Shown: piece after piece, positions 1,731-64,000 of the stretch | How the letters are laid out: every line of letters starts with the position of its first letter | Numbering within the stretch: position 1 is the first letter of the stretch | Origin: Combretum micranthum | Lineage: Eukaryota > Streptophyta > Magnoliopsida > Myrtales > Combretaceae | Direction of reading: 5' to 3' | DNA: 64,000 bases | Assembly: GCA_024138025.1 (NCBI GenBank) | Contig: JAMXBD010001378.1 | Span: 248,001-312,000, forward strand | Translations under genes and position numbers: made by a program | Notes under the pieces: generated by a model | The model's database searches: none | The model's input: the letters and a program-made list of their open reading frames with translations, nothing else | Told to the model about the DNA's origin: nothing

Positions 1731-1779
1731 TTAAAAGTTGTGGCTGTAATTGGCCTGAATACCCAACCCGAATGGGCGC

Positions 1780-1815
1780 AATTTATTCAACATATGATTC
1801 CCGGAAAGTCATATG
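1780..1815 (+). other. Conserved stem-loop (CATATGA/TCATATG)
   Basis: Arms CATATGA (1791-1797) and TCATATG (1809-1815) pair over 7 bp with an 11-nt loop holding CCGG. This is one of about ten copies of a structure whose stem covaries between LTR types. Confidence 0.6.
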
Positions 1816-1952
1816 TCTTGTATGCTCACGTGGTTGTTGCATTCCATATGTTTGAATAATAAACTTGGTTGATAATTTACTTTGAGTATGAATTTTGGGA
1901 TTTACTTACTAAGCCCATAAGCTTACACCCCTATAGGTATTTGTATTCTTAG

Positions 1953-2359: not shown

Positions 2360-2601
2360 ATGAGCCTAACCGAGTCGAGTGCTATGAGCCGAGGGTTTGG
2401 GGACTAGCAACGGTCATGTAGACTTCAATACCATCCCTAGCCCAAGATACGGAGGGCATAAATTCGTTCTGTATGTGGGTTTCGGATACCCATACATAAT
2501 TGTTTGCTCATGTATTTGTTCATGCATAGCATATGTTTGATTATAACTTGCTTGTTATGGTACGAAACTAAAGGAATTCTCACTAAGCTAGTGTAGCTTA
2601 T
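2360..2601 (+). repeat. C-like host LTR, fragment 1
   Basis: These bases closely match 6962-7200 of the C LTR (the TCGAGTGCTA-GAGCCGAGGG block, the GGAGGGC motif, a stem-loop at 2471-2495 with a one-base bulge, and the TAAGCTA hairpin at 2584-2600). The LTR is broken at 2602 by a second C LTR and resumes at 11123. Confidence 0.85.
2584..2600 (+). other. Invariant TAAGCTA hairpin
   Basis: TAAGCTA (2584-2590), GTG, TAGCTTA (2594-2600) form a perfect 7-bp palindromic stem. The same signal lies at 7181-7197, 16119-16135, 30213-30229 and 47463-47478; A and A2 LTRs keep only TAAGC/GCTTA. It precedes predicted exon 3 in each LTR. The nested C LTR inserted exactly at its 3' arm. Confidence 0.6.
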
Positions 2602-6555: not shown

Positions 6556-7224
6556 GTGAGTTTTCTCCTTGTTTTGTTACCTTGATTGTGCTTGTAGTTA
6601 GTTGCATTAGAATTATAGGAACAAGATAAAAATCGATATGAAGGGGATGGAGATATGATGAGACTGTGATGAATGTATGCCAAAGAATACTAAAGCATAT
6701 CGAAACAGATTTGATTGGATAACTGCACGTTCATATTATTTTGTTATATGTGTGATATTGGTTGGTCACCTAAAGAATGTATAAATATTTTTGACCTAAG
6801 CAAAATTAAATTGGTCATGCATCGCATCGGACATATTGCATTTGGTAGCATGCTACTCCTACGCAGGTCGATCGGTATGGTCCGTGATGCCTCGTTTGGA
6901 TAACGAGCCCGGTGCCAGAGCTCATTCAGGGGTACTAAGGCGCATGTGGATGCATTCCTTGGATGAGCCTAGCCTAGTCGAGTGCTAAGAGCCGAGGGCT
7001 TGGGGACTAGATGCGGTCGTGTAGACTCAATACCATTCCTAACCCAAGATACAGAGGGCGTAAATCCGTTCTGTGTGGGTTCGGATACCCACATAATTGC
7101 TTGCTCATGTGTTTGTTCATGCATAGCATATGATTGATTATAACTTGTTTGTTATGGTACGGAATTAAGGAAATTCTCACTAAGCTAGTGTAGCTTATAC
7201 CCCAATAGTTGTTTAAATGAACAG

Positions 7225-7856: not shown

Positions 7857-7992
7857 CTACAATATCAAAAGTCTATAGGAGTATAAGCATGACTAGCTTA
7901 GTGAGATATTCCTTATGCAATAGTACTCATAACAACGATCAAACAAGTTTATTAATGAAGCATATGAATGCAACAACACATGATCAAACATT

Positions 7993-8040
7993 ACATACGA
8001 CTATCCGGTTTCGTATGTTTGATGGATTTACCCCTCCATC
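7993..8040 (-). other. Two adjacent stem-loops (reverse A LTR)
   Basis: ACATACGA (7993-8000) pairs with TCGTATGT (8011-8018), and GATGGA (8021-8026) with TCCATC (8035-8040). The order is reversed because the LTR lies on the minus strand. Confidence 0.65.
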
Positions 8041-8563
8041 GGTGGTTAGGGAATGCTTTGAATTGGGTCCTGAACAACCTCCTTTAAGTTTGCGCGCGTC
8101 TTGGGATTCCAACAAACCGTACTACTAGTCCCCGGGCCTTCTATGCCCAAAGCGATCGATCCGGCTAGGCTACACCTAGAGGCTGTATCCCCCGTACGTC
8201 CTAACCCTCAAGATGTAGCTAGGCAGCTTACCTTTTCGGTCCCACGCTGAGGAGTAGTAGCAAAACTTCGAAATGATATTCTAAGTGATATGCATGAGCA
8301 ATTTATTATATGGGGATTTCAATATGGCATTAAATTATTTAAAGCGATCAAACAATATTTGCACACATAACAATACATACATGGAAACATTTATATTAAT
8401 CACAAATCGGGTTCCGATATACTTATCGTTCATTGGTCGCACACAATGAATCACATACATAATTCCCATAATATCCCACATGCATATCAATTTTATCTTT
8501 TCTACATCTAGTGCTCTATTCTACAAGCACATGCACGAATACATAAGCGTAAAGGAAACTCAC

Positions 8564-15942: not shown

Positions 15943-15974
15943 GTATCGCAGGATTCATTAATCTGCTAACCCGA

Positions 15975-16023
15975 GATAGAGGGCGCAAGTCCATCCACAT
16001 ATGATTTCCGGCTGGTCATATGT
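15975..16023 (+). other. Two adjacent stem-loops (B LTR)
   Basis: First stem GATAGA/TCCATC has one A-C mismatch; second stem ACATATGA (15997-16004)/TCATATGT (16016-16023) is a perfect 8 bp with CCGG in the loop. Confidence 0.6.
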
Positions 16024-16158
16024 TTGTTGAATTCATGTGTTTGATGCATATCATTTGTCTGATTAATCACTTGTTTGATTGATGTGTTATAATTGTGATC
16101 ATGGAAGTTTTCACTCACTAAGCTAGTATAGCTTACGCCCTATTTCTATTTATTATAG

Positions 16159-19858: not shown

Positions 19859-19968
19859 AAGCAAGGTCAATTCAAGTAGATTTGGAATGCATGGTGATGA
19901 GTGCTCGTGAGCATAATTTTTTTTTTCACTAAAACTACTTGATTTGAGGTTAAGTATCACCAAACCCC

Positions 19969-20015
19969 GAATGGAGGGCGCAAATCCATTCAATATAGTT
20001 CCCGAAAAGCTATAT
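19969..20015 (+). other. Two adjacent stem-loops (A2, 5' LTR)
   Basis: GAATGGA (19969-19975)/TCCATTC (19985-19991) with loop GGGCGCAAA, then ATATAG (19993-19998)/CTATAT (20010-20015). Confidence 0.65.
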
Positions 20016-20152
20016 GCTTGTTTGCCCACGTGTATGTTACATCACATTTGATTGCTTAAACAACTTGTTTGAAATTTTGTTACAAGAAGTTATTTATGGA
20101 AATAGTTCTCACTAAGCCTGTTAGCTTATACCCTCATAGATATCTTTTGCAG

Positions 20153-20655: not shown

Positions 20656-20671
20656 TCTCTCTTTTACATAG
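20656..20671 (+). other. Candidate splice acceptor before extra ORF
   Basis: A pyrimidine run ending CATAG at 20671. Joined to the exon 3 donor at 20195 it would remove LTR end and primer site (477 nt) and place the extra ORF near the 5' end of a spliced RNA. Inference. Confidence 0.35.
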
Positions 20672-20685
20672 ATCACCATAGATGA

Positions 20686-21681: not shown

Positions 21682-22010
21682 AGAAAGGAGGGTAGGACGA
21701 CGGAGCATATCCCTAGAAGTCCAGCTTGAATTTTTGTAATCATAAACTAGATTCACAATCTTAGTCTATCTTTTAATTTCTAGAACAATGTTTATTATTT
21801 TTCTATATAATTTCCTTTTGTGATTTGCCTTGTAGAAGATTTCTAATTTCATGTATGAATTTTTTTTTATTTCTACGATGATGCTTTAAGTTTGATTTCA
21901 GAAATTGTCTTGATTTAAATTTTATTAGCTTTTATGTATATTAAAGTTTCCGTTGCATCCACCAATTTCTAATGAAAATTCAATTAAGTATCAAAAACTT
22001 CTAAAACCTA
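21682..22010 (+). other. AT-rich spacer before gag
   Basis: No gene is visible. A stretch near 21910-21950 (CTTGATTTAAATTTTATTAG) parallels CTTGATTTAAATTTCTAG at 53301-53316 in the A element and may be a conserved acceptor for a spliced gag RNA. Confidence 0.4.
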
Positions 22011-23330: not shown

Positions 23331-23396
23331 ACGAAGAAGATGGAAACTTGGCTACCTTGGAGTGCATAAGAGGCTATAATAGCGACGTAGGAACCG

Positions 23397-23402
23397 GTAA
23401 GC
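23397..23402 (+). other. Candidate gag/pol splice donor (A2)
   Basis: GTAAGC after ACCG, at the place where the A element shows its predicted gag/pol intron donor (54751). No good acceptor at a plausible distance is left. Confidence 0.3.
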
Positions 23403-25600: not shown

Positions 25601-25607
25601 TTTCTTT

Positions 25608-25620
25608 AAGGGGGGTAGGT
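25608..25620 (+). other. Polypurine tract of A2
   Basis: AAGGGGGGTAGGT directly before the 3' LTR: the plus-strand primer. Same type as in the A element (58270-58282). Confidence 0.85.
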
Positions 25621-26345
25621 TGTAAACCCCAAATTTTTGGAATCAGTTTAGCATAAAACCCTAAACCGGAAGCCAACCAGAACCCTAAAAGTCAACAAAA
25701 CCCTAGTGTACCGTAACAGCTTAAATCCGGCATTGCCGTTTTCTTTGGTCCTAGAAAACGAAGTTGGAATAATTAGCTAGAATAGTTCGTAATAACTATA
25801 GTTATATAAAAATATCAGTTTTGCAAATTTCGGGTGTCCTTTGAACCCGATCGGACATAATTCTGGAAAAACATGTCCCGGGGCCTGGAATAGTAAAAAT
25901 ATTCCGAATATACCGTTAGACTCGTAAAAATATAAGATTTCCAAAAATATCAATTTCGTAATTTTTCGGTAAGTAAAAATAGCAGATATAGCTATTATAC
26001 GCGTATTTTCTTACTATCGGTACTTTATTAGTCATATTACTTTACAGTACATTATTCATTACTATTCTACACTATTCTTTCTCTACTTTTTCTTACACCT
26101 ACTCTTATAAGCACCATAACCTATAACCTTTACTTTTTACCTTTCCCATAACTTTATTTCACATCTACCTTACATATTACTTCTTCTAATTAACAAAAAG
26201 CAAAAATTAAATCACTCTCTCCCTATACATGTATGGCCGGCACCCGTGCGCCCCATCCCACCCCTTCCCCCCCCCCCCCCCCTCTTCCTCAATTTTGTTT
26301 TAATTTTTATTTATTTTAATCATACAAAAATCCCTCCACATTTTC

Positions 26346-26354
26346 CTATAAATA
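26346..26354 (+). promoter_or_regulatory. LTR promoter TATA box (A2, 3' LTR)
   Basis: CTATAAATA about 64 bp after a poly-C stretch; could drive transcription into the right flank. Confidence 0.6.
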
Positions 26355-28527
26355 CCTCTCCCCCTCCCCCTCTTTCACTTCTTTCACACAATTACTACCC
26401 ACAAAGTCATACAAGAACTCTCCCAAAATCTCTCCCAAAACTCTCTCAAAATAATTCCACAACAAACTTCTACCAACAACTAAAACCCATAACCACATAA
26501 TAATACCAAGTCTTCTTTAGGTAACCACTTCATATTATTTTCTTCTTCTTCATCATGTAGCTTTACATGACCATAGTGTGAGTTTCCAAAGACTACAAGT
26601 TATGGAAGCTACATTATGTTCATGTATTGTTCTTGTTCATGAAAAATCTATTTATGTCATGTTATTATTTTATTTATAATATTGTTACTATATCTAAGTA
26701 TTATTATATTTATACATATTCTTTAGAGCATATAAGCTCACTTGCAATTTATTTACTTTATGCAATGCAATTTATTTATTATTCCATTGCAATTTATTTA
26801 CTTGTTCCTTGTTATATTAAGACTAGTCTCTAGTCTTAGACTTGTCCTCATCAAGTCAAAACAAATTTTTCTTTCTTTCATTTTAATTTTATTTTGGGAC
26901 TAGTCTACTTCTTAGTCTCGGGAGCCTTGAAAAAGCTAAGACTCCAATACTTGACTTTATTATTATGTTGTTTTTGTTTACTATTATTTCTCATAAATCA
27001 TGTTCATTTAGATTGTTGTCCAAAATTTTCAATTTCTAAAAATAATAAACAAAAGAAGATTTTTTCACTTAGAAATAAATTTATGTAAAGAATAAAATCT
27101 ATATTCTAAAATAAAATCAATTCTTTTCAAGTTACAAAAAGAACCCACTACAAATTTTAGAAACTACTTTTACTATAAGAAGATTCTTGAATCCTTTATT
27201 ATTCCACTTTGTTTTTCAAAAGAAAATAATGGTTGGTACAAGAATACTTTTTATGGAAAAATAGACAAAATGAAAGGCTAAGGAATTTTTTTAAATAAAG
27301 ACCTTTACAAACAAATAGGCAAAGAAAATTGTATAGGAAAAGTAGTACTAATATAAGAACTTAGAAAATAAAAAAATTTCTTTCAAAAAAGTTACTTGGG
27401 AAAAAAAAAAAAACAAACATAAAACCCTTTTGGAAAACAAAAGAAACAAGATATTCATTTCAAGAGAATTACAAAATCAATTTTTGTAATCTATATTTTT
27501 CTAAAAACTTCAAACCGACATTGTTTTACTCAAAAATATAATTGGACAACAAAACACTTGGGCATGCTTAAATATGAGTTATATAGCTATAAAAAGAGAA
27601 TTTTCAACTATATAGATAACTAAGTATTTATCAAGCAAGTTTTGAATGAATGAACCAAAGTTGTTTTTGAATTAGAAAATTCGTGGTGGATTTTGTCACC
27701 ACTGTTTTGTGGCCCAAATGGGGTAGTTTGACAAAAATAGTTTTAGAAATGAATAAATCTTTTCGAATAGGTAGAAATCAGTATAATATATGTGCGATTC
27801 CAAGTTAAAATGACCAAGTTATGGCCATTTTAAATTGGAACTTTCCTTTATACGAACTTTAACGTTCTTTTGACATTGTTTTGTCAAAATTACAGAAAAT
27901 CATCAAGGAATGCTCATTGTGGGTATTTTCTTTGGCTAGGTGACCCCGAGGAAGGATTCCTTTATCTCGAAGATTATTACGATAAGTGGAGTGTGTGAAC
28001 GACTCACCCATAGAGGAATCGTCGACATGACATCGTGAGTTTATTTCCTTAAAATGCTATACTTGTTGTGCTTGTAAATTAGTTGCATTAGAATTAGGAA
28101 AAGACAAATCGATATGTATGTAAAATAATTCTTTGAAAGAATCCTAAGAATATCGGAGCCGAAATTGATTTGAATGCTTGTTTTAGTATAACCTTTGATT
28201 TGTATGAAGTTCCTTGATCGCCTTAAATTCAATAATAATTATGCTATGACATCATAAATAAATGAATTCATGCATACTATGAAGTGAGTCACATTGCATA
28301 TGGGTTATTATCCTTGGGTGAGAAGGATAGTAGGCTCATATCGAAAGCAATACTTGGCGGAGTATCCAAAGCATTGCTTGGCGGCTTAAGAGAAATGCTT
28401 GGCGGAAAATCCGAAAGCAAGGTCAATTCAAGTAGATTCGGAATGCTTGGCGATGAGTGCTCGTGAGCATAATTTTTTTTTTTTTTTCTAAAACTACTTG
28501 ATTTGAGGTTAAGTATCACCAAACCCC

Positions 28528-28577
28528 GAATGGAGGGCGCAAATCCATTCAACATATAGTTTTTGGAAAGCTATATG
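28528..28577 (+). other. Two adjacent stem-loops (A2, 3' LTR)
   Basis: GAATGGA (28528-28534)/TCCATTC (28544-28550) and CATATAG (28553-28559)/CTATATG (28571-28577), both perfect 7-bp stems. Confidence 0.65.
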
Positions 28578-29087
28578 CTTGTTTGCCCACGTGTATGTTG
28601 CATCACATTTGATTGCTTAAACAACTTGTTTGAAATCTTGTTACAAGAAGTTATTTATGGAAATAGTTCTCACTAAGCCTGTTAGCTTATACCCCCATAG
28701 ATATCTTTTGCAGTTTCCTTATTTTTGGTTAAGGCCACGAGGACCCTGCGGTCAGGTAATTTCTTTTTGGATAAAGGAAATTTTAGATGAAGTATATATT
28801 AGTATTAATGTACAAATATTCTTGTAATATATTAGTAATTACGGGGAAGTATCTCTAAGCTTGTAAGATCATTGTTATAAGTGAATGATTATTATGAATC
28901 CTCTTTTCTTAATGTGTTATTTATATCTTCTTGAGCTTCATAATTCCATATATGGTCCTCTAAATTTGTGAAAGCACGCCTTACACTTAATATAAAAGCT
29001 TTTGGGAATGGCTAAGGTTATCATATTTAAGCTTTTATATTGAGTGTGGCGGACTGTCACGTTTAGGGTACCTGTTGGGGCATGACA

Positions 29088-29327
29088 CTATTAACTTAGT
29101 TCATTTGTTTATCAACCAAAAGTTTTGTAAAATTTTCTATTTAAATAAAAACTTCATGCCCACTTAAATAAGATAATTAGCTTCTTTGAGTTTTTGGTTA
29201 TCATTAAAACTTAATTGATAGAGAATCAACATTCTCTTCCTTTTTGATGATAACAAAACAACCTTTCTCATGAGAAATTTTCAAGAATCATTCAATGATC
29301 ACATCACACATATATCATCACACACAT
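29088..29327. other. Unassigned AT-rich spacer
   Basis: 240 bp between the A2 element and a reverse D-like LTR. It does not continue the dead pol on the other side of A2 and matches no other part of the window that I can see. Confidence 0.5.
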
Positions 29328-29789: not shown

Positions 29790-30326
29790 TGTCACGCCCC
29801 GAAGGGTACCCTAAACGTGGCAGTCCCGTACACAATATTAAAGCCTAAGAATAACCACCTCAGTCACGCGAAGGCTTCCATACTATGTATAAGGCGTCTA
29901 ACATAAAGGAGATACATCGGAATGATACATTTTATGTTGATACAAATAAGTAACAATGTAAAGGAAATACAAATTTACTATACTCCAAATACAAAACCAT
30001 ATACTTCAAAATACAATTCATCAAACTTCAACTACATTCATCCCAAGACTTCACTATATAAAGCTATTACAAAGCAAATCGTAAAGCTTAGCCAAAAACT
30101 TCAAGCATTCTTATATCTTGCCGGAATCTCGGAATCATTCTCGGCTTCAACCAACTAGGTCCCCACTTAGCATTCTTGGAGTAACCTACTCATTTAAACA
30201 TCTATTGGGGTATAAGCTACACTAGCTTAGTGAGATTCATTTTCGCAATAATATACTCAATTGTAAAATATACAAACAAGTTTATTTAAACAATCATATG
30301 AATGCACAAGCACGTGAACATAAAAT

Positions 30327-30375
30327 CATATGACTTTCCGGTAGCCATATGTGAATGGATTTACGCCCTCCATTC
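30327..30375 (-). other. Two adjacent stem-loops (chimeric LTR)
   Basis: CATATG (30327-30332)/CATATG (30346-30351) with CCGG in the loop, and GAATGGA (30353-30359)/TCCATTC (30369-30375). Confidence 0.6.
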
Positions 30376-30430
30376 GGGGTTTGGGGTGGTCCATGAACAT
30401 GCGACCACAATTCCAATATTTTCTCTTGTG

Positions 30431-47435: not shown

Positions 47436-47572
47436 CTGCAATAGATAAAAACTATGGGGGCGTAAGCTAACTAGCTTAGTGAGTAATAACTTCCATAACA
47501 CAATTATGTACAATTCATTCAAACAAGTGATTATCCAAGCAAGTGTATGCATCAAATAGATGAGTTCAACAA

Positions 47573-47622
47573 ACATATGACCAACCGGAAATCATATGTG
47601 GATGGACTTGCGCCCTCCATCC
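47573..47622 (-). other. Two adjacent stem-loops (reverse B)
   Basis: ACATATGA (47573-47580)/TCATATGT (47592-47599) with CCGG in the loop; GGATGGA (47600-47606)/TCCATCC (47616-47622). Confidence 0.65.
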
Positions 47623-47650
47623 CCGGTTAGTAGATTAACGAATCCTGCGG

Positions 47651-48309: not shown

Positions 48310-49782
48310 CGTAAATTTTATATCGATCTCTATCTAATTCGAAAGATCTATCTATTTATAATATTAAATTCAAGTTTTGAAAACATTAAGGTCACGGAAC
48401 AGTAGGATCAGATCTGTTCCATGATTTCTCCAATTCCGAAAATTTGTTTTGCTTTTGATAAGAAATGTTCCTAGTTGATGATTCATGCATGAATGGTACA
48501 GGAATGAATTACTAACATGAATGCCATGTAATGAACTCAATATATGCATGGTCATGATGATTTTGTGATAATAAACTCTTATGAACTCCTAAGTATTAGA
48601 AAATTCCATAAAGGTTATTTCTTAAGAAGCTATTCTTCCACTTTACACTCCTTTAGGGTTTCTTTGACTTGTAATCTTGTAATTCACTTGTTATCTAGAT
48701 GAAAATAAGTTCTTAAAGTCTATATTAATCATGGCCTTCATTCATGCATAAAAATTCCCATTTTTCATTTGGTAAACATGTTTTTAAACAAGCCTTTTGT
48801 AAAATCCGAATTTTTAAAATTTCATTTTCTTGCATTTTTCTTATGGAAAAACTTGTCTAATGAAGTAAAAATTGAAGCTCCAATATATATACTATCCAAG
48901 GACTTCATTTAGCTTATAAAACATCCAATTTAGACTTAGATACTAAGAGTTCTTGTAGGCATGAACCTAAGTTACGAATTTGACTATTGATCCACATATC
49001 AATATTTTTCATTCTAACTCCACCACTTGTTTTACATTCCTATCATGCCTAAACTCATCAAACTTATGAAAATCATTCTTTCAAGATATCTATTACATAT
49101 TGTAAGCCCCTAGATTTTTCGATAATATTAGGAAACCCTAAGAACCGGAAGTTGAAACGAAACCCTAAAATTAACCTAGTTCTATGATTAGTCTAGTGAA
49201 TCTAGATCCGGCAATCCCGTGTTCTTAAACCCTAGAAAACGAAATTGAGATAATTGTGGAAAACGGTTCGTAATAACATAGGGAAGCCTAAAAATATCAG
49301 ATTCGAATTTTTCTAGTGTCCTTCGGATCCGATCGGGATCAGTTTTCGAAACGTGCCCCGAGCACCGGATAGCAAAAATATTCCGACAACACCAATAGTC
49401 TAAAAATAAAGGTTTTCAAAAATCAGTTTTAGAATTTTTCGGTATCTAAAATAACAGATATAGGCCTTTTACGCGTATTTTCTTTACTACCGGTATTTTA
49501 ATTGTCTAGTCTACTATTCATAGTACTTTTCTACCATTCATTACTATTCACCTATCTCTACTTTTTCTTACACTCTACCATACCTATATCTTACAATTTA
49601 CCTTCCCCATACAACTTTAATCACATCATATCTTACACATTACTTCTTTTAATACAAAACAAACAAAAATAATTAATTCTCCTACTCTATACACTCCAAA
49701 ACCGGCGCCACTTTTGCCCTCTCCCATCTATTTTTATTCAATTTCATTTAATTTAAATCACACAAATTTCCACTCCAAAAAT

Positions 49783-49791
49783 CTATAAATA
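49783..49791 (+). promoter_or_regulatory. LTR promoter TATA box (A, 5' LTR)
   Basis: CTATAAATA; a GGCGCC/C-rich stretch lies about 75 bp upstream. Leader downstream is CA/CT-rich and lacks ATG up to the exon 1 donor. Confidence 0.7.
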
Positions 49792-50161
49792 CCCCTTCCT
49801 TCCTCCATTCTTTCACACAACAAAAATTCATACTAAAACTCTCTCAAATTCACTCCACAAAATCCTCTCCCAACATCTCTCTCAAGTCTCCTCTTTCTTT
49901 AGAAAACCAAGTCTCACATAACAACAACCCATTCTTTTCTTCTTCATCAAACATAAGCTTTAGTAAAAGATCTCATATTCTCTTCTCATGTTCATATAAC
50001 TTAACATGAGTTTAGTGTATGTTTCTTAGACTCATTGAGTTAAAGAAGCAACAATTTATTCATGTTTTGTTTTGTTCATGTTCTTATTTTCTTTATGTTA
50101 CTATTATGTTGATATTGTTATTATTTGTATTATCCATATATATATATATATATGTTTATTT

Positions 50162-50358
50162 AGAGCATATAAGCTCACTTGTTATTTATTTATTTCAAGT
50201 CTTGCAATTTATTTAATTTCAAGTTGTTCTTAAGACTAGTCTCTAGTCTTAGACTTGTCCATATCAAGTCAAAACAATTTTATTTCCTTGCTTTTCTTTT
50301 CTTTTAAGGACTAGTCTATTCTTAGTCCCGGGATTCCTTGATGAAGCTAAGGTTCCCA
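50162..50358 (+). other. Cluster of consecutive hairpins in LTR
   Basis: GAGC/GCTC at about 50162-50177; AAGACTA (50232-50238)/TAGTCTT (50044+200 = 50244-50250); GACTTG (50252-50257)/CAAGTC (50265-50270); GGACTA (50308-50313)/TAGTCC (50323-50328); CCTT (50336-50339)/AAGG (50349-50352), the last inside GGG/CCC. Copies: 93-294, 9676-9880 (reverse), 18179-18372, 26726-26950, 59357-59560. Absent from B and C. Confidence 0.6.
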
Positions 50359-51257
50359 ATACTTGACTTTACCTTTATGCTCTTATTTATTTTATTTATG
50401 TTGTTACATATTCTCATTCATACATGAATATGTTGTTATTGTCTCAATCATAATAGGAATGAGTTTTCTCCAAAAATAAGAATAAGAACTCTTCATAAAA
50501 ATAAATTTTGTCACATAAGAAGTTATTTTCCTTAAAGATTTGAAATTCATCTTAAAACAAATATTCTTCTAAAGTTAGATAAGCTAGCTCAAGTTTTAGT
50601 AATAATATATGGTTTTCACCAAGAAATACATAAAGTAAAGTTATTCTCTTTTCAAATATATAAGAAAGTTTCTTTAGACTTAAACAAAGGATTTCTTAGA
50701 TTCAATTGTCAAATTTTCCCACCTACGCTAAAGTCTAAAATAAGTTTTTCCAAAATTTACTTATAAGATGATTTCTTTCAAAAGTGGATATAACCATGAA
50801 GTATTTAGAAAAGAGTATGTTTTTCAAAACATTAGAAATAAGGAAATAGAAATTTGAAAGAGATTAAATCCACTTTTATTTAAGAAATGGAGTTAAAAGG
50901 AGGAGATATTTACTTTAGTAAAATAACAAAACTAATTTCTTTACAAAAATTAAGCTTATCTCACTTTCAAAGCATATTGTATTACTAGAATATTGTTGAG
51001 ACAACACTACTAAATTCATGCATATGGTTTGAGTATATATACGTATTCAAGGGGTTTTTCAACCATACAATATATCTATATTTTTGTACAAAAGCCCTTG
51101 AGTGAAGTAATGTTTGAAAACTCTAGTTTTGAAGTTTGGAAAATTCGTATCAAATCTGTACGCTACTATTCCGAGACCCAAATAACTTCTTTTGATGAAA
51201 TAACCTTAGAAATAGATAGATCTTTTCGAGTAGGTAGAAATCGGTATATAATATGCG

Positions 51258-51307
51258 GAATTCCGAGTTAAAATGAGCAAGTTATGGCCATTTTAAATTG
51301 GAATTTC
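51258..51307 (+). promoter_or_regulatory. Palindromic dyad (A, 5' LTR)
   Basis: AATTCC and GGAATT outer arms, TTAAAATG and CATTTTAA inner arms, centred on GCAAGTTATGGC. 3' LTR copy at 60445-60494. Confidence 0.65.
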
Positions 51308-51402
51308 CATTCCATACGATTTTACAAATTCTTTAAGATAGAAGTATAGATCTTGAATAGATCTTGGATGAAATACTCATGTTGGGTATTTCTTTTGTTT
51401 AG

Positions 51403-51466
51403 GTGTCGAGGATCACGACCTTGTCTTCCCCGAGGATTACTTCGACTCCTAGAGCGCTATGGACGA
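51403..51466 (+). other. Predicted LTR micro-exon 2 with acidic tail
   Basis: Acceptor TTTTGTTTAG ends at 51402; donor GTGAGT at 51467-51472; 64 nt. Reads VEDHDLVFPEDYFDS then TAG (51405-51452). ATG at 51459, eight bases before the donor. Confidence 0.55.
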
Positions 51467-51989
51467 GTGAGTTTCCTTTACGCTTACGTATTCGCGCATG
51501 TGCTTGTAGAATAGAGCACTAGATGTTAGGAAAAATAAAATTGATATGCATGTGGGATATTATGGGAATTATGTATGTGATTCGTTGTGTGCGATCAATG
51601 AACGATAAGTATATCGAAACCCGATTTGTGATTGATATAAATGTTTCCATGTATGTATTTTATGTGTGCAAATATTGTTTGATCGCTTTAAATGATTTAA
51701 TGTCATATTGAAATCCTCATATAATAAATTGCTCATGCATATCACTTAGTATATCATTTCGAAGTTTTGCTACTACTCCTCAGCGTGGGACCGGAATGGT
51801 AAGCTGCCTAGCTACATCTTGAGGGTTAGGACGTACGGGGAATACGGCCTCAAGGTGTAGCCGAGCCGGATCGATCGCTTTGGGCATGGAAGGCCCGGGG
51901 ACTAGTAGTACGGTTCGTTGGAACCCCAAGACGCGCGCAAACTTTGAGGAGGTTGTTCGGGACCCAGTTCAAAGCATTCCCTAACCACC

Positions 51990-52037
51990 GATGGAGGGGT
52001 AAATCCATCAAACATACGAAACCGGATAGTCGTATGT
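51990..52037 (+). other. Two adjacent stem-loops (A, 5' LTR)
   Basis: GATGGA (51990-51995)/TCCATC (52004-52009), then ACATACGA (52012-52019)/TCGTATGT (52030-52037) with CCGG in a 10-nt loop. 3' LTR copy at 61184-61231. Confidence 0.7.
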
Positions 52038-52173
52038 AATGTTTGATCATATGGTTGTTGCATTCATATGCTTGATTAATAAACTTGTTTGATTGTTTTA
52101 TGAGTACTATTGCGTAAGGAATATCTCACTAAGCTAGTCATGCTTATACTCCTATAGACTTTTGATATTGCAG

Positions 52174-52211
52174 GATTATCTTTTGCACCCGAGACCCTCT
52201 TGATTTCCCGG
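52174..52211 (+). other. Predicted LTR micro-exon 3 (A)
   Basis: Acceptor TTGATATTGCAG ends at 52173; donor GTAGAA starts at 52212; 38 nt. Confidence 0.5.
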
Positions 52212-52574
52212 GTAGAATCCTTATTTTGAGAAGCTTTTGGAGGCAATCTATTTTGAAGTTATAGAGTAGATTTCTTCTAAAATCTTCTAGCTTTAGTTAT
52301 GTATATTTAGAACCATGTTATTATGAATTATCGGGGGAATGCCCCTTAGAAGTGTAAGACTTTTATTTCAATGAAATATATTAAGTGTTATTTTGCATGT
52401 TCCGCTGCCAATGTCTTAAAATGCATTACTCCACCGGTCTCCCTTTGTTGTGAATGTACGCCTTGTACCGATATGGAAGCTTTCGAGTGACTGAGGTAGT
52501 CATTCTTAAGTTTTAATATTGCGTACGGCGGGCTGTCACGTTTAGGGTACCCGCTGGGGCGTGACAGTTTAAGT

Positions 52575-52586
52575 TGGTATCAGAGC
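52575..52586 (+). other. Primer binding site of A, tRNA-Met
   Basis: TGGTATCAGAGC, eight bases after the LTR. Confidence 0.93.
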
Positions 52587-53356
52587 ATCAAGATTAGGGA
52601 AAGAAACAGTAAGTTAGAAATAGAAGTCTTAAGATAGGATAAGTTTAAGATTAAGCCATAAGAGTTTTAGGAAGAATCCTAGAATTATAGTGGGGATTTA
52701 TGGGAAACACATGTTCTATGACCATACCTAAGATATGTAAGTGGCCCTAGGACTAGTTTATACCCTTAAGAAGAATAGGAGGATTTCCAAACCGTTTTAA
52801 GCTTTAAGAAAACACAAAACCTTGTAATTGTAGTTACTAAAGGATAGAATAATCTTGCTTTCTAAAACAAAAGGAAAATACGTTTACAACTAAACCTTAG
52901 GTAACGCCGGAAACGAGTCACGCAGACGCCATCAACGGATCGAAGGTGACAAGAAGGTGAAACCAACCCCAGATTCCCTCAAGTCTCAACAAAAGGATCG
53001 AGAGAAGTAAGGAGCCATGATGAGAAGAAGACGTCGTATTCACCCAAGACGCAACGCCTTAGTATTAAATCGCAATAATCAAAAGATGTAGTTAAGTTTT
53101 AACAAATAAAAGTAACCTAATGATTTCTTGATAATAGATTCCTTTGTTTTAGTTTTATTATATTATTCTTTTTGTGATTAACATGCATGATTTTGATTTC
53201 TTACTTGTAATTTCTTTGAATTGTATTTGAATTTCATAATTTCTTATTAAACTCCTATCAATCCCTATTTTGTCAATTTATTTCCTTAAGTTTTGTACCT
53301 TGATTTAAATTTCTAGTCTTTATATTTGAGATTTCCGTGATTTCGTAAACGTTAGT
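52587..53356 (+). other. Untranslated leader between primer site and gag
   Basis: AT-rich, no convincing gene. A 24-codon arginine-rich ORF (53017-53091, starts MMRRRRRIHPRR) is noted without function. A splice-acceptor-like CTTGATTTAAATTTCTAG ends at 53316, 40 bases before the gag ATG. Confidence 0.5.
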
Positions 53357-54755
53357 ATGGAGCGTAAAGAAACTAAAATCTAAACGATTAAACAGCCGTC
53401 CAAGAAGACGTAGGAATAGAGAACAAAGAGATTCCAACAACGTACCAGCTGAACGCGGAGTACCCCCGCGTAACCAACCAGAGAATAACCCTGCTCCTGC
53501 TCCGAACCAGCAAAACGACTTTGCAGCTGCCATTGGACAGATGAACCAGTTATTAGCTATTTTGATTCAGCAACAAAATCAAAATAACCCAGCTCCTGCT
53601 CCACCTCAGAATGCTCCTGAAGCTACGGTAGAAGCACCCGGCGAACAGTCACATGCTGCACCATTTCCACCACCACCACCGCCAGATCACATCAAAACTT
53701 GCTCGCCAATTTCATCAAAAGTAATACCTACTTTGATGGAACCTTCGGAAAACCAGCTGAGGCCGAAGATTGGTTGGCCCAGATTGAGAGATCATTTGAT
53801 GGTTATGAAGTACCCCACCACCTAAGAGTCAGTTTTGGGACATTCATGTTGAAGTTCAATGCTCGCATATGGTGGGAATCGAAGAAGCGAGAATTGCCTG
53901 CTCCAGTTACGTGGGATATGTTTCGAGAAGAGTTCTTGGAGAACTACTTTCCAGGGAGCCTTAGAGTTCGGTACAGTGCTGAGTTCTTTAATATACTCAG
54001 AAGGGAGAACCATCGAGCAGTACGAAACCGAATTCAGTCGCTTGTTGCAGTATGCTCCTGATCCTATAAGCACAGCGAGGAGCTAAAGAGACAAGTTTTC
54101 TTGAATGGGTTAGATGAAGACCTAAAATTCGTCTGGTGGAATTTGATGTTAAGAGTTTTAAGGGGCTAGTGGAAAAGGCTAGAATTATTGAAGAAGCCAA
54201 AAAGATGAAAAAAAAGCTCCGGAGAAGAAGGTATTTGTGTTTGGAAGGAAGCCATATGAAGGACCAAGTTCTGGGTTCAAAAACAATAAGAGGTTTAAGA
54301 CCTTTGGGTTTCAAAGGAAGTGGAAGCAATCAGAGGGAGGTGACCAAGGTAGATGTCACATGCTGGAAATGCCGAGGGAAGCATTATCCAAAGTCCTGCC
54401 CACAATTGCAAAACAAGTGCTTCTTTTGTGGCAGCCCGGATCATAAAATCTTGGAGTGTCCCAAGAAGAACACCAGTGTCTGCTATGTGTGCAAGCAGCC
54501 AGGGCACTTTGCAAATGAATGCCCAAAGAGGAAAAATGCTCTTGTGAGGTCATCCAACACCTCGGGAGGATCTGCCCTTGTCAGAACCAACAATGGCAAT
54601 GGAATGGGAACCGCTCTGGCACCTCGATGCATGGAATGAGAGTCTACAACCTGGAGGGCCAGTGGATGTGCGAGGAAGCAGATGATGAGGAGGAAGGATG
54701 TGAGTTTGCTGCCTTAGAGGAAGAAGGCTATGATCATGGACTCGTTGCAGGTTAG
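53357..54755 (+). pseudogene. gag: gag of A element, several one-base shifts
   Basis: Probable start ATG 53357; after one shift a basic segment (RPRRRRNREQRD), a Gln/Pro-rich linker and the capsid domain follow (YFDGTFGKPAEAEDWLAQIE, WWESKKREL, EFLENYFPGSLRVR, YETEF, LLQYAPD). Breaks near 53690, 53995, 54060 and in the A-run at 54210. The nucleocapsid has three intact CCHC knuckles, CWKCRGKHYPKSC, CFFCGSPDHKILEC and CYVCKQPGHFANEC. The C-terminal acidic tail (EGQWMCEEADDEEEG) ends at TAG 54753-54755, which lies inside a predicted intron. Closest to the A2 gag in this window. Confidence 0.88.
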
Positions 54756-57800: not shown

Positions 57801-58285
57801 TCTCGAATTTCAAGTGGGAGACCATGTATACTTAAAGATAAATCCAATCAAGAGTATACATCGAGTACGCTCACAAGGAAAGTTGAGCCCACGGTATATT
57901 GGACCTTTTGAAGTGCTTGAACGAGTGGGAGATCTAGCTTATCGCCTAGCCTTGCCGCCAAACCTGTCAGGTGTACATAACGTGTTTCATGTATCAGTCT
58001 TGCGCAAGCATGTCGCGATCCAGAACGAGTGTAGAGTTGGAGCCAGTGTTGTAAAGGAGAACCTCACTTATGAGGAACACCCGGTACAGATTTTGGATAG
58101 AAAAGTCCAAAAGCTTCGGAACAAAGAGATCAAATATGTCAAAGTCCTCTGGAGGAATCACACCCATGAGGAGGCAACTTGGGAAGCCGAGGATGAGATC
58201 CGACGCAAATATCCGAATCTTTTCGAGGAATCAGGTACGATAGCAAGTTTTGAGGACAAAACTTTCTTTAAGGAGGGTAGGTTGT
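54897..58285 (+). pseudogene. pol: pol of A element (PR-RT-RH-IN-CHD), frameshifted
   Basis: Protease DTGATHSFI (catalytic D at 54939). RT: open 55345-56103 with [20 protein letters not shown] and catalytic FIDD at 55927-55938; breaks near 56007, 56065 and 56160. RNase H: open 56131-57039 with catalytic D 56371, E 56479 and D 56554. Integrase: zinc region about 56990-57125, core D at 57208 (SMDF), D at 57387 (SDRDPRF) and E at 57493 (SERT), with about six shifts between. Then the open stretch 57787-58287: GPY/F (PRYIGPFEVLERVG) and chromodomain (YVKVLWRNHTHEEATWEAED). Every catalytic residue I looked for is present; only the frame is damaged. Final stop is TAA within the first bases of the 3' LTR. 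Confidence 0.92.
58270..58282 (+). other. Polypurine tract of A
   Basis: AAGGAGGGTAGGT directly before the 3' LTR; inside the last codons of pol. Confidence 0.88.
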
Positions 58286-58974
58286 AAGCCCCTAGATTTT
58301 TCGATAATATTAGCAAACCCTAAGAACCGGAAGTTGAAACGAAACCCTAAAATTAACCTAGTTCTATGATTAGTCTAGTGAATCTAGATCCGGCAATCCC
58401 GTGTTCTTAAACCCTAGAAAACGAAATTGAATAATTGTGGAAAACGGTTCGTAATAACATAGGGAAGCCTAAAAATATCAGATTCGAATTTTTCTAGTGT
58501 CCTTCGGATCCGATCGGGATCAGTTTTCGAAAACCGTGCCCCGAGCACCGGATAGCAAAAATATTCCGACAACACCAATAGATTCGTAAAAATATAAGGT
58601 TTTCAAAAATATCAGTTTTAGAATTTTTCGGTATCTAAAAATAACAGATATAGGCCTTTTACGCGTATTTTCTTTACTACCGGTATTTTAATTGTCTAGT
58701 CTACTATTCATAGTACTTTTCTAATTCATTACTATTCACCTATCTCTACTTTTTCTTACACTCTATTCTTACACTCTACCATACCTATATCTTACAATTT
58801 ACCTTCCCCATACAACTTTAATCACATCACACTTACACATTACTTCTTTTAATACAAAACAAACAAAAATAATTATTCTCCCTCTATACACTCAAAACCG
58901 GCGCCATGCCCTCTCCATCTATTTTTATTTCAATTTCATTTAATTTTAATCACACAAATTTCCACTCCAAAAAT

Positions 58975-58983
58975 CTATAAATA
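58975..58983 (+). promoter_or_regulatory. LTR promoter TATA box (A, 3' LTR)
   Basis: CTATAAATA; 183 bp before the leader donor. Confidence 0.65.
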
Positions 58984-60591
58984 CCCCCTTCCTCTTCCAT
59001 TCTTTCACACAACAAAAATTCATACTAAAACTCTCTCAAAATCACTCCACAAAATTCCTCTCCCAACATCTCTCTCAAGTCTCTCTTTTCTTTAGAAAAC
59101 CAAGTCTCCATAATACAACAACCCATTCTTTCTCTTCTTCAAACCCATAAACTTTAGGTAAAACTTCTCATATTCTCTCATGTTCATATAACTTAACATG
59201 AGTTTAGTGTATGTTTCTTAGACTCATTGAGTTAAAGAAGCAACAATTTATTCATGTTTTGTTTTTGTTCATGTTCTTATTTTCTTTATGTTACTATTAT
59301 GTTGATATTGTTATTATTTGTATTATCTATATATATATATATATATATGTTTATTTAGAGCATATAAGCTCACTTGTTATTTATTTATTTCAAGTCTTGC
59401 AATTTATTTAATTTCAAGTTGTTCTTAAGACTTGTCTCTTTAGTCTTAGACTTGTCCATATCAAGTCAAAACAATTTTATTTCCTTGCTTTTCTTTTCTT
59501 TTAAGGACTAGTCTATTCTTAGTCCCGGGATTCCTTGATGAAGCTAAGGTTCCCAATACTTGACTTTACTTTATGCTCTTATTTATTTTATTTATGTATG
59601 TTACATATTCTCATTCATACATGAATATGTTGTTATTGTCTCAATCATAATAGAATGAGTTTTCTTAAAAATAAGAATAAGAACTCTTTTTAAAAATAAA
59701 TTTTGTCACATAAGAAGTTATTTTCCTTAAAGATTTGAAATTCATCTTAAAAAATATTCTTCTAAAGTTAGATAAGCTAGCTCAAGTTTTAGTAATAATA
59801 TATGGTTTTCACCAAGAAATACATAAAGTAAAGTTATTCTCTTTTCAAATAAATAAGAAAGTTTCTTTAGACTTAAACAAAGGATTTCTTAGATTCAATT
59901 GTCAAATTTTCCCACCTACGCTAAAGTCTAAATAAGTTTTTCCAAAATTTACTTATAAGATGATTTCTTTTAAAAGTGGATATAACCATGAAGTATTTAG
60001 AAAAGAGTATGTTTTTCAAAACATTAGAAATAAGGAAATAGAAATTTGAAAGAGATTAAATCCACTTTATTTAAGAAATGGAGTTAAAAGGAGGAGATAT
60101 TTACTTTCATTAACAAAACTAATTTCTTTACAAAAATTAAGCTTATCTCACTTTCAAAGCATATTGTATTACTAGAATATTGTTGAGACAACACTACTAA
60201 ATTCATGCATATGGTTTGAGTATATATACGTATTCAAGGGGTTTTTCAACCATACAATATATCTATATTTTTGTACAAAAGCCCTTGAGTGAAGTAATGT
60301 TTGAAAACTCTAGTTTTGAAGTTTGGAAAATTCGTATCAAATCTGTACGCTACTATTCCGAGACCCAAATAACTTCTTTTGATGGAAATAACCTTAGAAA
60401 TAGATAGATCTTTTCGAGTAGGTAGAAACCGGTATATAATATGCGGAATTCCGAGTTAAAATGAGCAAGTTATGGCCATTTTAAATTGGAATTTCCATTC
60501 CATACGATTTTTACAAATTCTTTAAGATAGAAGTATAGATCTTGAATAGATCTTGGATGAAATACTCATGTTGGGTATTTCTTTTGTTTAG

Positions 60592-60655
60592 GTATTGAGG
60601 ATCACGACCTTGTCTTCCCCGAGGATTACTTCGACTCCTAGAGCACTATGGACGA
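60592..60655 (+). other. Predicted LTR micro-exon 2 (A, 3' LTR)
   Basis: 64 nt between TTTTGTTTAG and GTGAGT; the acidic tail is kept to TAG (60594-60641). Confidence 0.5.
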
Positions 60656-61183
60656 GTGAGTTTCCTTTACGTTTACGTATTCGCGCATGTGCTTGTAGAA
60701 TAGAGCACTAGATGTTAGGAAGAAGATAAAAAAATTGATATGCATGTGGGATATTATGGGAACTATGTATGTGATTCGTTGTGTGCGATCAATGAACGAT
60801 AAGTATATCGAAACCCGATTTGTGATTGATATAAATGTTTCCATGTATGTATTATTATGTGTGCAAATATTGTTTGATCGCTTTAAATAATTTAATGTCA
60901 TATTGAAATCCTCATATAATAAATTGCTCATGCATATCACTTAGTATATCATTTCGAAGTTTTGCTACTACTCCTCAGCGTGGGACCGGAATGGTAAGCT
61001 ACCTAGCTACATCTTGAGGGTTAGGACGTACGGGGAATACGGCCTCAAGGTGTAGCCGAGCCGGATCGATCGCTTTGGGCATGGAAGGCCCGGGACTAGT
61101 AGTACGGTTCGTTGGAACCCCAAGACGCGCGCAAACTTTGAGGAGGTTGTTCGGGACCCAGTTCAAAGCATTCCCTAACCACC

Positions 61184-61231
61184 GATGGAGGGGTAAATCC
61201 ATCAAACATACGAAACCGGATAGTCGTATGT
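61184..61231 (+). other. Two adjacent stem-loops (A, 3' LTR)
   Basis: GATGGA (61184-61189)/TCCATC (61198-61203) and ACATACGA (61206-61213)/TCGTATGT (61224-61231). Confidence 0.65.
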
Positions 61232-61368
61232 AATGTTTGATCATATGGTTGTTGCATTCATATGCTTGATTAATAAACTTGTTTGATTGTTCTTATGAGT
61301 ACTATTGCGTAAGGAATATCTCACTAAGCTAGTCATGCTTATACTCCTATAGACTTTTGATATTGCAG

Positions 61369-61406
61369 GATTATCTTTTGCACCCGCGAGACCTCTTGAT
61401 TTCCCG
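61369..61406 (+). other. Predicted LTR micro-exon 3 (A, 3' LTR)
   Basis: 38 nt between ATATTGCAG and GTAGAA. Confidence 0.45.
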
Positions 61407-61757
61407 GTAGAATCCTTATTTTGAGAAGCTTTTGGAGGCAATCTATTTTGAAGTTATAGAGTAGATTTCTTCTAAAATCTTCTAGCTTAGTTTGATATAT
61501 TTAGAACCATGTATTATGAATTATCGGGGAATGCCCCTTAGAAGCTGTAAGACTTTTATTTCAATGAAATATATTGATGCTATTTTGCATGTTCCGCTGC
61601 CAATGCCTTAAAATGCATTACTCCACCGGTCTCCCTTTGTTGTGAATGTACGCCTTGTACCGATAGGAAGCTTTCGAGTGACTGAGGTAGTCATTCTTAA
61701 GTTTTAATATTGCGTACGGCGGGCTGTCACGTTTAGGGTACCCGCTGGGGCGTGACA

Positions 61758-63153
61758 CATATACCCTTCATTTTTCTTATGAAATGAGTTAGAAAATGAT
61801 TTTGGTGGCTTTTAAGGCAGGGTTTCACTTTCATCCGAATTTCCAACATTGCATATTTAACAAAACCTTTCCTTTTCAATATTCTTGCTTCCTATATGTG
61901 AAGATCTACTATCTAACATCTCTATACATGAACAAGACTACATTTTTATGATCATCAATGCATAGAAAACAAAATAAACCTATGATCATGCATGTACATG
62001 AATGTGGATGTCTAAACTTTAGATCTACTATATATATATGCATGAATCATGGATCTCATGGCATGAACAACAATATATATGCAAGATCTCTACTTCACAT
62101 GCATGAACAAGATGATATTCAACCAAAACTCTTCCAAATACTAGATCCACTTCTTGTGATGGCTTGAGATTCTTGTAGTAATGTTTTCATGTCCCTTGCT
62201 CATGCTCATTGGGATTTAAATGAGAAAACACATAAGAATGATCTTGCCATTACAAGATTTGGGATGAATAAGATCTAAAATCAACATACCAAAGGAGTTT
62301 TGGAGTAGAAAAAGGAGTAAATGAGTTGAACTTGTGAGAGGGGGAGGGGCAAAGCTCACGGCACCAAGGGGGAAAAAGAGAAGGTTTTTACTCCTTTGTA
62401 AAATTGAAACAAGAAGAAATGAGAGAGAAGAGAAAAAATATGTTTATATATGAAGGCATTAGGGTTTATTAATGAATAAAAATTGTAAAAATGAATCAAA
62501 TGAGGAAACTAAAAGGGAAGGGGGGGAGGGGGGGAGGGGTGCGCGCCTGCCACATCCGTGTGTGTGTGTGTGTGTGTTAAAATTTGATATTTGTAATTTA
62601 GTAAATTAAAATGTAGTAATGTGATAATTATTTAAGAGACAAAATTTCTTGGAAAAGAAAATTGAAATGAGTAGTTGTAAGGATATAAGAATAGGGTATG
62701 GGTAGTGTGTAGTGTAGGTTGTACTTGTGAATAGTAGACAAGACATCTACTTTACCGGTTGTACCAAAAACACGGGAAAAGCTATAACTGTAATTTTTAT
62801 AGCTCGAAAAATTATAAAAATTGATATTTTTGGAATCCTTATAAAATTACGGTTCTAATGAATATTCCGGAACATTTTTCTGAATCCGTGGTCCGGGGCA
62901 CGCTTTTTCGTAATTGAGCTCGGGAAGGCCCGGAAATGAAAATTCTCGAATTTAAAACTTTCGAAGGTTTAAAATGTACTTTGGAACAATAATTCAAATT
63001 CATTTACTTTATAAAATTTCTTTTATTATGAAACCGAAGGAAAGCCGGATTTAGGGTTTCTAGGCTTCTTCCACTGGACTCAAACTGGACCGGATTAGGG
63101 TTTCGCTTCCAACTTCTGGGGTTTCTTAACTACTGAGAATACCGGGGTTTACA
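61758..63153 (-). repeat. 3' LTR of minus-strand B element, part 2
   Basis: Starts with the CATAT duplicate (61758-61762) and continues part 1 (47056-49100). Minus strand: LTR start TGTAAACCCCGG at 63153, (AC)n and C-tract (62515-62578), TATA-like TATATAAAC (62439-62450), exon 1 donor (CTTTG, GTATGT) near 62288. No gene. Confidence 0.92.
62515..62578 (-). repeat. G-run and (GT)n microsatellite
   Basis: Plus strand shows runs of 8, 7 and 4 G, then GCGCGCC and about eleven TG units. On the LTR's sense strand it is a C-tract about 70 bp upstream of the TATA-like site, matching the C-tracts of other LTRs. G-quadruplex potential on the plus strand. Confidence 0.7.
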
Positions 63154-63182: not shown

Positions 63183-64000
63183 TCAAAACGAAATTGACGT
63201 ACCTTGTCCCTCAAATATCTCGGGGTACTTCCTCCAGATTTCATCTTCAGCTTCCCAGGTTGCTTCCTCAAAGGCATGATTCCTCCATAACACTTTAACG
63301 TAGTGAATGTCTTTGTTTCGTAGCCTTTGAGTTTTCTTATCCAATATCTTCACTTGGTGTTCCTCATATGTCGGGTTTTCCTTCAACTGAATTGGTTCCA
63401 ATTCCAGAATCCTTTCCGGGTCGGCAACATATCTTCTCAAAACTGACACATGGAATACGTTGTGGATCCCGGACAAATTTGGTGGCAGGGCAAGCCGATA
63501 TGCTAGATCTCCGACCCTTTCTAAGATTTCAAAAGGTCCAATGTATCTCGGGCTTAACTTTCTCTGTGTACGCATCCTCTTAATACTTTTAATCGGGTTT
63601 ATCTTTAGGTACACATGATCACCTACCTTGAACTCAAGTTCTCTTCTTTTCAAATCTGCCCAGCTCTTTTGCCGGTCCTGAGCTTCTTTCATTTTCCGCT
63701 GAATCAACCTCACTTTATCCGCGGCTTCTTGTACCAATTCCGGCCCAATTGCTACCTTTTCCACTTCATCCCAAAACAAAGGGGATCTACAACGCTCCAT
63801 ACAAAGCTTCATACGGTGGCATCTGGATGGTGGAGTGATAGCTGTTATTGTAGGCAAACTCGATTAGGTGTACATGACTATCCCAATTCCCTTTGAATTC
63901 CAAGGCACACGCTCTCAACATGTCTTCTAGGGTTTGGATCGTCCGCTCAGACTGTCCATCGGTCTGAGGGTGATAAGCCGTGCTAAAATGCAATTTGGTG
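63183..64000 (-). pseudogene. pol: pol 3' end of minus-strand B element (IN-CHD)
   Basis: Runs off the right edge. The outer frame (63993 down to 63787) gives the integrase core end with [19 protein letters not shown] and [21 protein letters not shown] loss of about two bases near 63796 shifts it into the long open frame 63857-63183: FWDEVEKVAIGPELV, a coiled linker, HVYLKINPIKSIKRM, GPY/F (PRYIGPFEILERVGDLAYR), NVFHVSVLRRYV, and the chromodomain (YVKVLWRNHAFEEATWEAED). It integrates element cDNA, and the chromodomain is thought to guide it to marked chromatin. Best-preserved pol segment here: one break in 800 bp. Confidence 0.9.

Follow-up and report, generated by a model that had tools for sequence, protein, structure and literature searches.

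Hairpins and host element

Two hairpins, HP1 and HP2, lie back to back in the 5' LTR of a retrotransposon on the forward strand of the window (the whole stretch of 64,000 nucleotides that was analysed). This pair, described in a first-pass annotation of the DNA, was confirmed at 51990-52036, where both stems and both loops were read in the sequence. HP1 at 51990 has the stem GATGGA/TCCATC and the loop GGGGTAAA, and begins 577 nt before the LTR end; HP2 at 52013 has the stem CATACGA/TCGTATG and the loop AACCGGATAG. The features of the element around the pair are:

49101..52566, forward strand: 5' LTR of the element with the 51990 hairpins, beginning TGTAAGCCCC and ending GGGGCGTGACA
51990..52009, forward strand: HP1, stem of 6-7 bp with a conserved, GGGCGYAAR-like loop
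52013..52036, forward strand: HP2, covarying stem of 7-8 bp, CCGG in most loops
52533..52567, forward strand: LTR-end hairpin, perfect over 8 bp (CTGTCACG/CGTGACAG), adjoining the primer binding site (found by eye)
52575..52586, forward strand: primer binding site TGGTATCAGAGC
about 58283-61760, forward strand: 3' LTR partnering 49101..52566

We take the primer binding site TGGTATCAGAGC to be of the initiator-Met tRNA type, and the LTR-end hairpin resembles the retroviral U5 stem.

Pfam domains PF00078 (RVT_1) and PF17917/PF17919 (RNase H) were found within the element that carries the 51990 hairpins, and the Gag domains PF03732 and PF19259 in neighbouring elements; the Ty3/gypsy domain set (RVT_1, RNase H and Ty3-type Gag) is found across this and the neighbouring elements. 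A match to the chromodomain PF00385 (E 1.1e-4, 22.5 bits, below the cut-off of 25.1) follows an SH3_Tf2-1 domain in the neighbouring ORF 63186-63863 (reverse strand). The LTR is 3.47 kb long, somewhat longer than the LTRs of beet Tekay elements (up to 3.0 kb in the available part of PMC3605345). The host element is probably a plant Ty3/gypsy retrotransposon, a chromovirus of Tekay type, the Tekay-like label being used because the LTR is long and a neighbouring element has the chromodomain match.

Two other stretches of the LTR (forward strand) are conserved. That at 50128-50378 matches a copy at 55-317 at 79% and, by eye, holds four or five more hairpins in a row (GAGC..GCTC, TAAGACTAG..CTAGTCTTA, GACTTG..CAAGTC and GGGACTA..TAGTCCC). 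At about 51190-51310 there is a block around GAGTTAAAATGAGCAAGTTATGGCC with up to 89% identity between families.

Copies of the hairpin pair

A covariance model built from nine distinct window copies identified, besides the 51990 pair, the following copies of HP1-HP2:

1766..1820, forward strand
2443..2502, forward strand (no donor found upstream)
7045..7099, forward strand
7989..8045, reverse strand
15970..16026, forward strand
19965..20020, forward strand, 5' LTR of the 17063-29091 element
28524..28581, forward strand, 3' LTR of the 17063-29091 element
30323..30379, reverse strand
47570..47626, reverse strand
61179..61235, forward strand, 3' LTR of the 49101 element

The 11 window copies match the model at E 3.3e-11 or better. 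The next ten matches in the window have E-values of 0.009 to 1.6, and nine of these are the reverse strand of the same copies. The variant stems reported earlier are present: GAATGGA/TCCATTC together with CATATAG/CTATATG at 28524-28581, GGATGGA/TCCATCC at 47570-47626 (reverse), CATATGA/TCATATG at 1766-1820 and TGTGGGT/ACCCACA at 7045-7099. The claim that every LTR has the pair holds for 11 of the 12 flanking-block copies in the window and fails at 34763 (reverse), a copy of the block around the third hairpin (HP3, see below) whose two upstream hairpins are lost, the sole such case among the 12. Tandem hairpins whose Watson-Crick stems reach at least 6 and at least 7 bp fall into 19 bins of 60 nt, compared to 0.8 expected from 10 dinucleotide shuffles; both strands are included, so one copy can count twice.

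Within the first 200 kb of the same contig there are 24 further model matches (E up to 0.0015). Alignment A4 consists of 64 copies at E up to 1e-4 (59 of them distinct), namely the 11 window copies, 21 of these 24 (three weaker copies fell outside by the E limit) and 32 copies of loci L021-L050. HP1-HP2 are thereby documented in the 11 window LTR copies and in 53 more from the same 1.86-Gb genome. One of the four stem forms, counted genome-wide, gave 3335 + 3310 matches (control, 0).

Covariation of the stems

Both arms of the stems change together, as the first-pass annotation had claimed, and they do so beyond phylogenetic expectation. Compensatory double changes were found on 15 branches, compared to a mean of 1.47 and a maximum of 7 under a tree-aware null, for which the tree was made from the flanks alone and each column's parsimony number of changes was placed randomly on the branches (1000 simulations). 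Pairing is 91.6%, compared to 67.5% simulated (maximum 81.6), and none of the 1000 simulations reaches any observed measure, in a test that still relies on the columns of A4.

Shuffling gives a similar picture for the stronger measures. Among the nine distinct window copies, 92.3% of cells are paired (shuffled, 83.8 +- 1.6) and 15 cells are changed on both sides (shuffled, 4.8 +- 1.9); seven pairs have a both-sided change (shuffled, 3.7; reached by 9 of 500 shuffles), and there is no excess of further pair types (14 vs 15.2). For the 59 distinct copies of A4, which was fitted to the covariance model and is biased towards the structure, 91.4% of 873 cells are paired (shuffled, 81.4 +- 0.7), 114 cells are changed on both sides (35.2 +- 7.2) and the covariation score is 0.431 (0.240 +- 0.011), and none of 500 shuffles reaches any of the three. 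Sliding the partner columns by 1-3 gives scores of 0.014-0.148. Two weaker measures are closer to the shuffles: 12 pairs have a both-sided change (shuffled, 8.7; reached by 9 of 500), and there are 29 further pair types (shuffled, 26.0; reached by 23 of 500). The outer two pairs of HP1 are broken in 28 and 20 of the 59 copies.

A check with RNAalifold, proposed in the first-pass annotation, was run on a structure-blind alignment (MAFFT, 25 chosen diverse copies, 285 columns) without any hint of the fold. The consensus folds into HP1, HP2 and HP3 and nothing else, and 9 of its 20 pairs have compensatory changes.

Strand and loops

Under a constraint on DNA, G-U and A-C cells are expected to be about equally frequent, by the symmetry of transitions. 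HP2 without its innermost pair has 36 G-U cells vs 7 A-C cells (counts of mutually dependent cells rather than independent events), and this excess points to a sense-strand RNA. There is no such excess in HP1, which has 10 of each in the inner five pairs and, as a whole, 11 G-U vs 36 A-C cells (the outermost pair is A-C in 22 copies). Thus, the strand argument rests on HP2.

These counts bear on an explanation that requires no RNA function, in which inverted repeats are kept symmetric by template switching in reverse transcription or the pair is a DNA-level site. By copying one arm onto the other, reverse transcriptase can alter both at once (quasi-palindrome correction), and HP1-HP2 do sit at the same place in all copies compared. 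Such a process is difficult to reconcile with the G-U intermediates of HP2, with single compensatory changes in otherwise conserved arms, with the conserved loops and with HP3, likewise an inverted repeat, which hardly varies. We regard this explanation as highly improbable.

The loops of HP1-HP2 are conserved in sequence while the stems vary. In most copies loop 1 is GGGCGYAAR or closely similar to it, as noted before. CCGG, which had been called usual in loop 2, occurs in 38 of the 59 distinct copies; most of the 21 loops without it differ by C-to-T or G-to-A changes, and only one has another 4-nt palindrome (CTAG). Because 20 of 21 losses of CCGG occurred without a new palindrome, the palindrome is not kept by compensation, which counts against the dimer idea. 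The earlier interpretation thus stands in part: covariation, fold and G-U counts argue for a conserved structured RNA of the sense strand, and the proposal of dimerisation or packaging stays conjectural, with its dimer part weakened by the loss of CCGG.

Pairing between the two loops (GGG/CCC) was considered by eye and dropped, being broken in copies with ACC or TTC. A search of Rfam 15 with 51000-53000, at a limit of E 5, returned six matches, the best of them at E 0.21 and each far below its gathering score; no known ribozyme or other Rfam RNA was thus matched in that stretch.

HP3 and abundance in the genome

Downstream of the pair are two further conserved features:

52130..52146, forward strand: HP3, nearly invariant stem TAAGC/GCTTA within CTCACTAAGC..GCTTA
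52172..52173, forward strand: AG of a conserved acceptor-like YAG, 21-27 nt past the HP3 match in 56 of 64 copies

In 34 of 35 copies, CTCACTAAGC..GCTTA, with up to two substitutions, lies at +134 to +158 relative to the HP1 start. A single cell of the HP3 arms varies in the 25-copy alignment; covariation therefore says nothing on this hairpin. Two exact forms of the HP3 block have 9,330 and 4,502 occurrences in the genome (partly the same places), and the reversed patterns have none. The 30 loci retrieved with only the HP3 block as query, which are the first 30 of the 9,330 places and lie on two contigs, all carry HP1-HP2 at the same offset. The first-pass annotation mentions neither HP3 nor the signals for splicing nor the likely start codon of Gag within the LTR (see below).

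The exact HP3 pattern had no match in the viral contig and genome contig collections, and an RT-based scan of viral contigs gave 88 stretches with a pattern, none confirmed as relatives. Because these searches for relatives elsewhere gave none, all copies compared are from one genome. A protein search with part of Gag gave four matches with 65-72% identity.

Predicted promoter and exons in the LTR

Upstream of the hairpins the LTR appears to be organized like a gene, predicted as follows (a slash within a motif here and below marks the splice junction):

49783..49793, forward strand: TATA box CTATAAATACC, the same in all eight LTR heads aligned
49815..49962, forward strand: predicted exon 1, CT-rich, ending TTTA/GTAA (by conservation; no ATG by eye)
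49963..51402, forward strand: predicted intron 1, 26.5% GC, 39% T
51403..51466, forward strand: predicted exon 2, following TTTAG, with its only ATG at 51459-51461
51459..51461, forward strand: predicted Gag start codon, 8 nt before the GTGAGT donor
51467..51472, forward strand: donor GTGAGT of predicted intron 2, the most widespread hexamer

The eight LTR heads were picked by BLAST to the 49101 element. A scan of 35 copies found the TATA pattern in 12, and the TATA box (one mismatch allowed) together with donor 2 in only 11; families without this TATA box may have another promoter or be truncated. The start of exon 1 is assumed to be 32 nt after the TATA box. Donor 1 reads TTAG/GTAA in seven of the eight heads; the 49101 element lacks one G and was skipped in the count of exon 1 ATGs. 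Exon 2 begins at the junction of a pyrimidine-rich TAG/GTG and is 64-99 nt long across copies. GTGAGT tops all hexamers of the -720..-380 stretch, occurring in 56 of 63 copies (the next, TAAAAT, in 53), and 49 of these 56 have an ATG exactly 8 nt before it.

Eight copies could be delimited among the 11 with TATA box and donor 2 (about four families, mostly pairs). In these, ATGs number 2 in 1,319 nt of predicted exon 1 (1.5/kb; both in one family, two of the eight copies), compared to 246 in 12,354 nt of intron 1 (19.9/kb) and 101 in 4,158 nt of the initial part of intron 2 (24.3/kb). Exon 2, delimited in 39 copies, has one ATG in 33, two in five and none in one, and its first ATG is the one at 8 nt in 29 of 39. 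Read without splicing, the ATG at 51459 meets a TGA, within GTGAGT, as codon 4. Predicted exons have a T content of 25-30% vs 33-39% in introns for the 51990 element (F5), and 23-24% vs 29-37% for F4. No intron-less (spliced) copy was found in the 355 kb of sequence searched.

One frame of exon 2 (51403-51450, forward strand) reads GDPExDxxLPPDYYY and a stop, or a more distant form, with no ATG before it and with apparent synonymous changes between families. A protein encoded by the LTR and ending in ..DYYD and a stop in exon 2 was considered and dropped, since six of the eight delimited copies have no ATG ahead of it in exon 1.

Start of Gag and predicted intron 2

53394..53395, forward strand: AG of the predicted Gag acceptor, AAACAG/CCG; Gag body from 53396, phase 2, without an ATG of its own

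Predicted intron 2 of F5 spans 51467-53395 and includes HP1, HP2, HP3, the LTR end and the primer binding site. In six of the eight Gag copies examined (four families), the Gag frame starts right after a YAG: F5 at 53396, F4 at 22032 and four in a neighbouring stretch. The codons after YAG are in the phase required by the 8 nt of exon 2 (phase 2) in all six, there is no ATG between YAG and the preceding stop (2-16 codons upstream), and the first residues are mostly basic. The open codons after YAG number 432, 142, 100, 38, 35 and 17, and the first ATG of the 432-codon frame is codon 84; one of the six thus reads as a long open frame, the other five as apparently decayed further on. The scan found no such acceptor in the two other Gag copies. 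A related public Gag protein also reads ..NSR.., which F4 and F5 encode as AACAG/CCN. We infer with good support that Gag is made from a spliced RNA whose start codon lies in exon 2 of the LTR, and that the predicted intron removed holds the hairpins and the primer binding site.

The predicted Gag intron also contains an extra ORF (window 20686-21678, forward), which follows the primer binding site, precedes Gag and is broken by stops in the copies read. Further pieces are at L004 (about 5822-6544, forward), L006 (about 7442-7788, forward) and L018 (about 5750-6151, reverse), with 48-88% protein identity between families. The three pieces scanned had no Pfam family (best E 0.14), and there was no match within the F5 element. 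The acceptor-like YAG after HP3 may serve another spliced RNA, perhaps for this extra ORF before Gag.

Proposed role of HP1-HP2

HP1-HP2 form a paired, covarying structure at a fixed position between the donor-like GTGAGT and two acceptor-like sites. The LTR stretch with the conserved stem-loops appears to be transcribed as a leader, and conserved RNA stem-loops in the leader, a property used to recognize packaging signals, are found here, given that predicted transcription. We give roughly even weight to the reading that HP1-HP2 act in cis as a conserved RNA element of the long leader in a plant Ty3/gypsy retrotransposon. The most likely role would be packaging or dimerisation, followed by export or splicing control.

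We predict that transcription starts within the LTR and that part of the RNA is spliced to a Gag mRNA, in which the early AUG of a short leader would be the start. This mRNA would lack the primer binding site and the hairpins, and for that reason could not be a template. The remaining RNA would stay whole, keep HP1-HP2 and be unable to start Gag at the AUG of exon 2. Since only unspliced RNA keeps them, if splicing is as predicted, we infer with moderate support that HP1-HP2 mark the unspliced RNA as genome. Gag would most likely bind HP1-HP2, with the conserved GGGCGYAAR loop, for packaging, and the CCGG loop could possibly mediate RNA dimerisation. A structure kept only in the genome-type RNA is what is expected of a packaging or an export signal.

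The position of the pair between donor-like and acceptor-like sites would also suit a control of splicing, in which HP1-HP2, together with HP3 close to the intron's 3' end, slow the splicing of their own intron so that some RNA stays unspliced. HP3 precedes the conserved YAG by 21-27 nt, and the GYAAR of the HP1 loop, by reading of the sequence, resembles a weak donor. The donor reading fails in copies with GC or AT for GT, and splicing silencers need no structure with free stem sequence; we consider this alternative rather unlikely. As an actual splice donor the HP1 loop was ruled out, since its GT is GC or AT in many copies and a fixed GTGAGT sits 401-576 nt upstream instead.

An equally doubtful alternative to packaging is that HP1-HP2 are a nuclear export element. 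Unspliced RNA needs an export route that is independent of splicing, and the CTE of simian retroviruses is an export element of this kind. Mouse retrotransposons also have export elements, the MTE of MusD and the RTE of IAP, according to sections of a 2025 review which state that export of plant-element RNA has not been studied directly (PMC12786077). HP1-HP2 would be like MTE and RTE in being an RNA structure of an LTR retroelement, but the host differs. No described element was matched (the Rfam matches in 51000-53000 were all below the gathering score), and plant elements without known introns must export their RNA too.

Relation to known systems

In HIV-1, MMTV and MLV, hairpins for packaging (Psi) and dimer initiation are located in the leader, and only unspliced RNA carries them. 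HP1-HP2 share with Psi the stem-loops in a leader near the primer binding site and the confinement, here predicted, to unspliced RNA. Psi lies downstream of the major splice donor, and we propose the same logic for HP1-HP2. They differ in belonging to a plant element and in lying within the LTR, on the upstream side of the primer binding site. In retroviruses, Gag is translated from the unspliced RNA, which serves both translation and replication; here Gag apparently comes from spliced RNA, and its binding to the hairpins is putative.

CRR is a centromeric chromovirus of rice. Like the element described here it is a plant Gypsy element with spliced RNA, as are Bagy2 and Ogre in the available part of PMC3735527; splicing of CRR differs in removing the rt part, and makes two ORFs. 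The same source describes how two promoters and a 104-nt intron at the gag end separate the RNA pools of BARE, a Ty1/copia element of barley (PMC3735527). BARE is comparable in that templates for translation and replication are apart and splicing favours Gag; the intron predicted here differs in that its donor is in the LTR, 8 nt downstream of the first base of the start codon, and in that the primer binding site is spliced out with it. Plant LTR elements are generally without introns, with Ogre and EVADE as notable exceptions, according to the portion of the 2025 review at hand (PMC12786077). These two resemble our element in being plant LTR retrotransposons with functional introns (PMC12786077, PMC3735527), but as described in those excerpts the intron removes the protease part in EVADE and lies between ORFs in Ogre, and neither spans the LTR end and primer binding site. 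Two sunflower elements have spliced isoforms with truncated Gag (PMC7730604, in part), and a survey reports, in the text available, that length variation prevented LTR models of plant Metaviridae (PMC3601003). The words spliced, splicing, intron and start codon are absent from the available text of a paper on centromeric chromoviruses (PMC3059260). Among the matches listed in open-licence literature (often the best 10-12 of many more), judged from titles and openings, none described covarying hairpins in plant LTRs or a plant chromovirus whose LTR holds the Gag start codon.

Implications

How the RNA of LTR elements is split between translation and packaging is an open question. We tentatively propose, with somewhat less than even confidence, that in a very abundant group of plant chromoviruses the start codon of Gag lies in the 5' LTR and spliced RNA is the sole source of Gag, with the primer binding site and covarying packaging hairpins in the intron removed and the unspliced RNA serving as replication template only. 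With thousands of copies in one genome, the power of comparison is strong, and the predictions of the model are simple: one junction, one start codon and one 60-nt element. A Gag start in the LTR might explain why ORF callers can misplace the start of Gag in elements of this kind (P0001 is a possible example). If true, one splice would separate translation from replication, the reverse of the retroviral arrangement.
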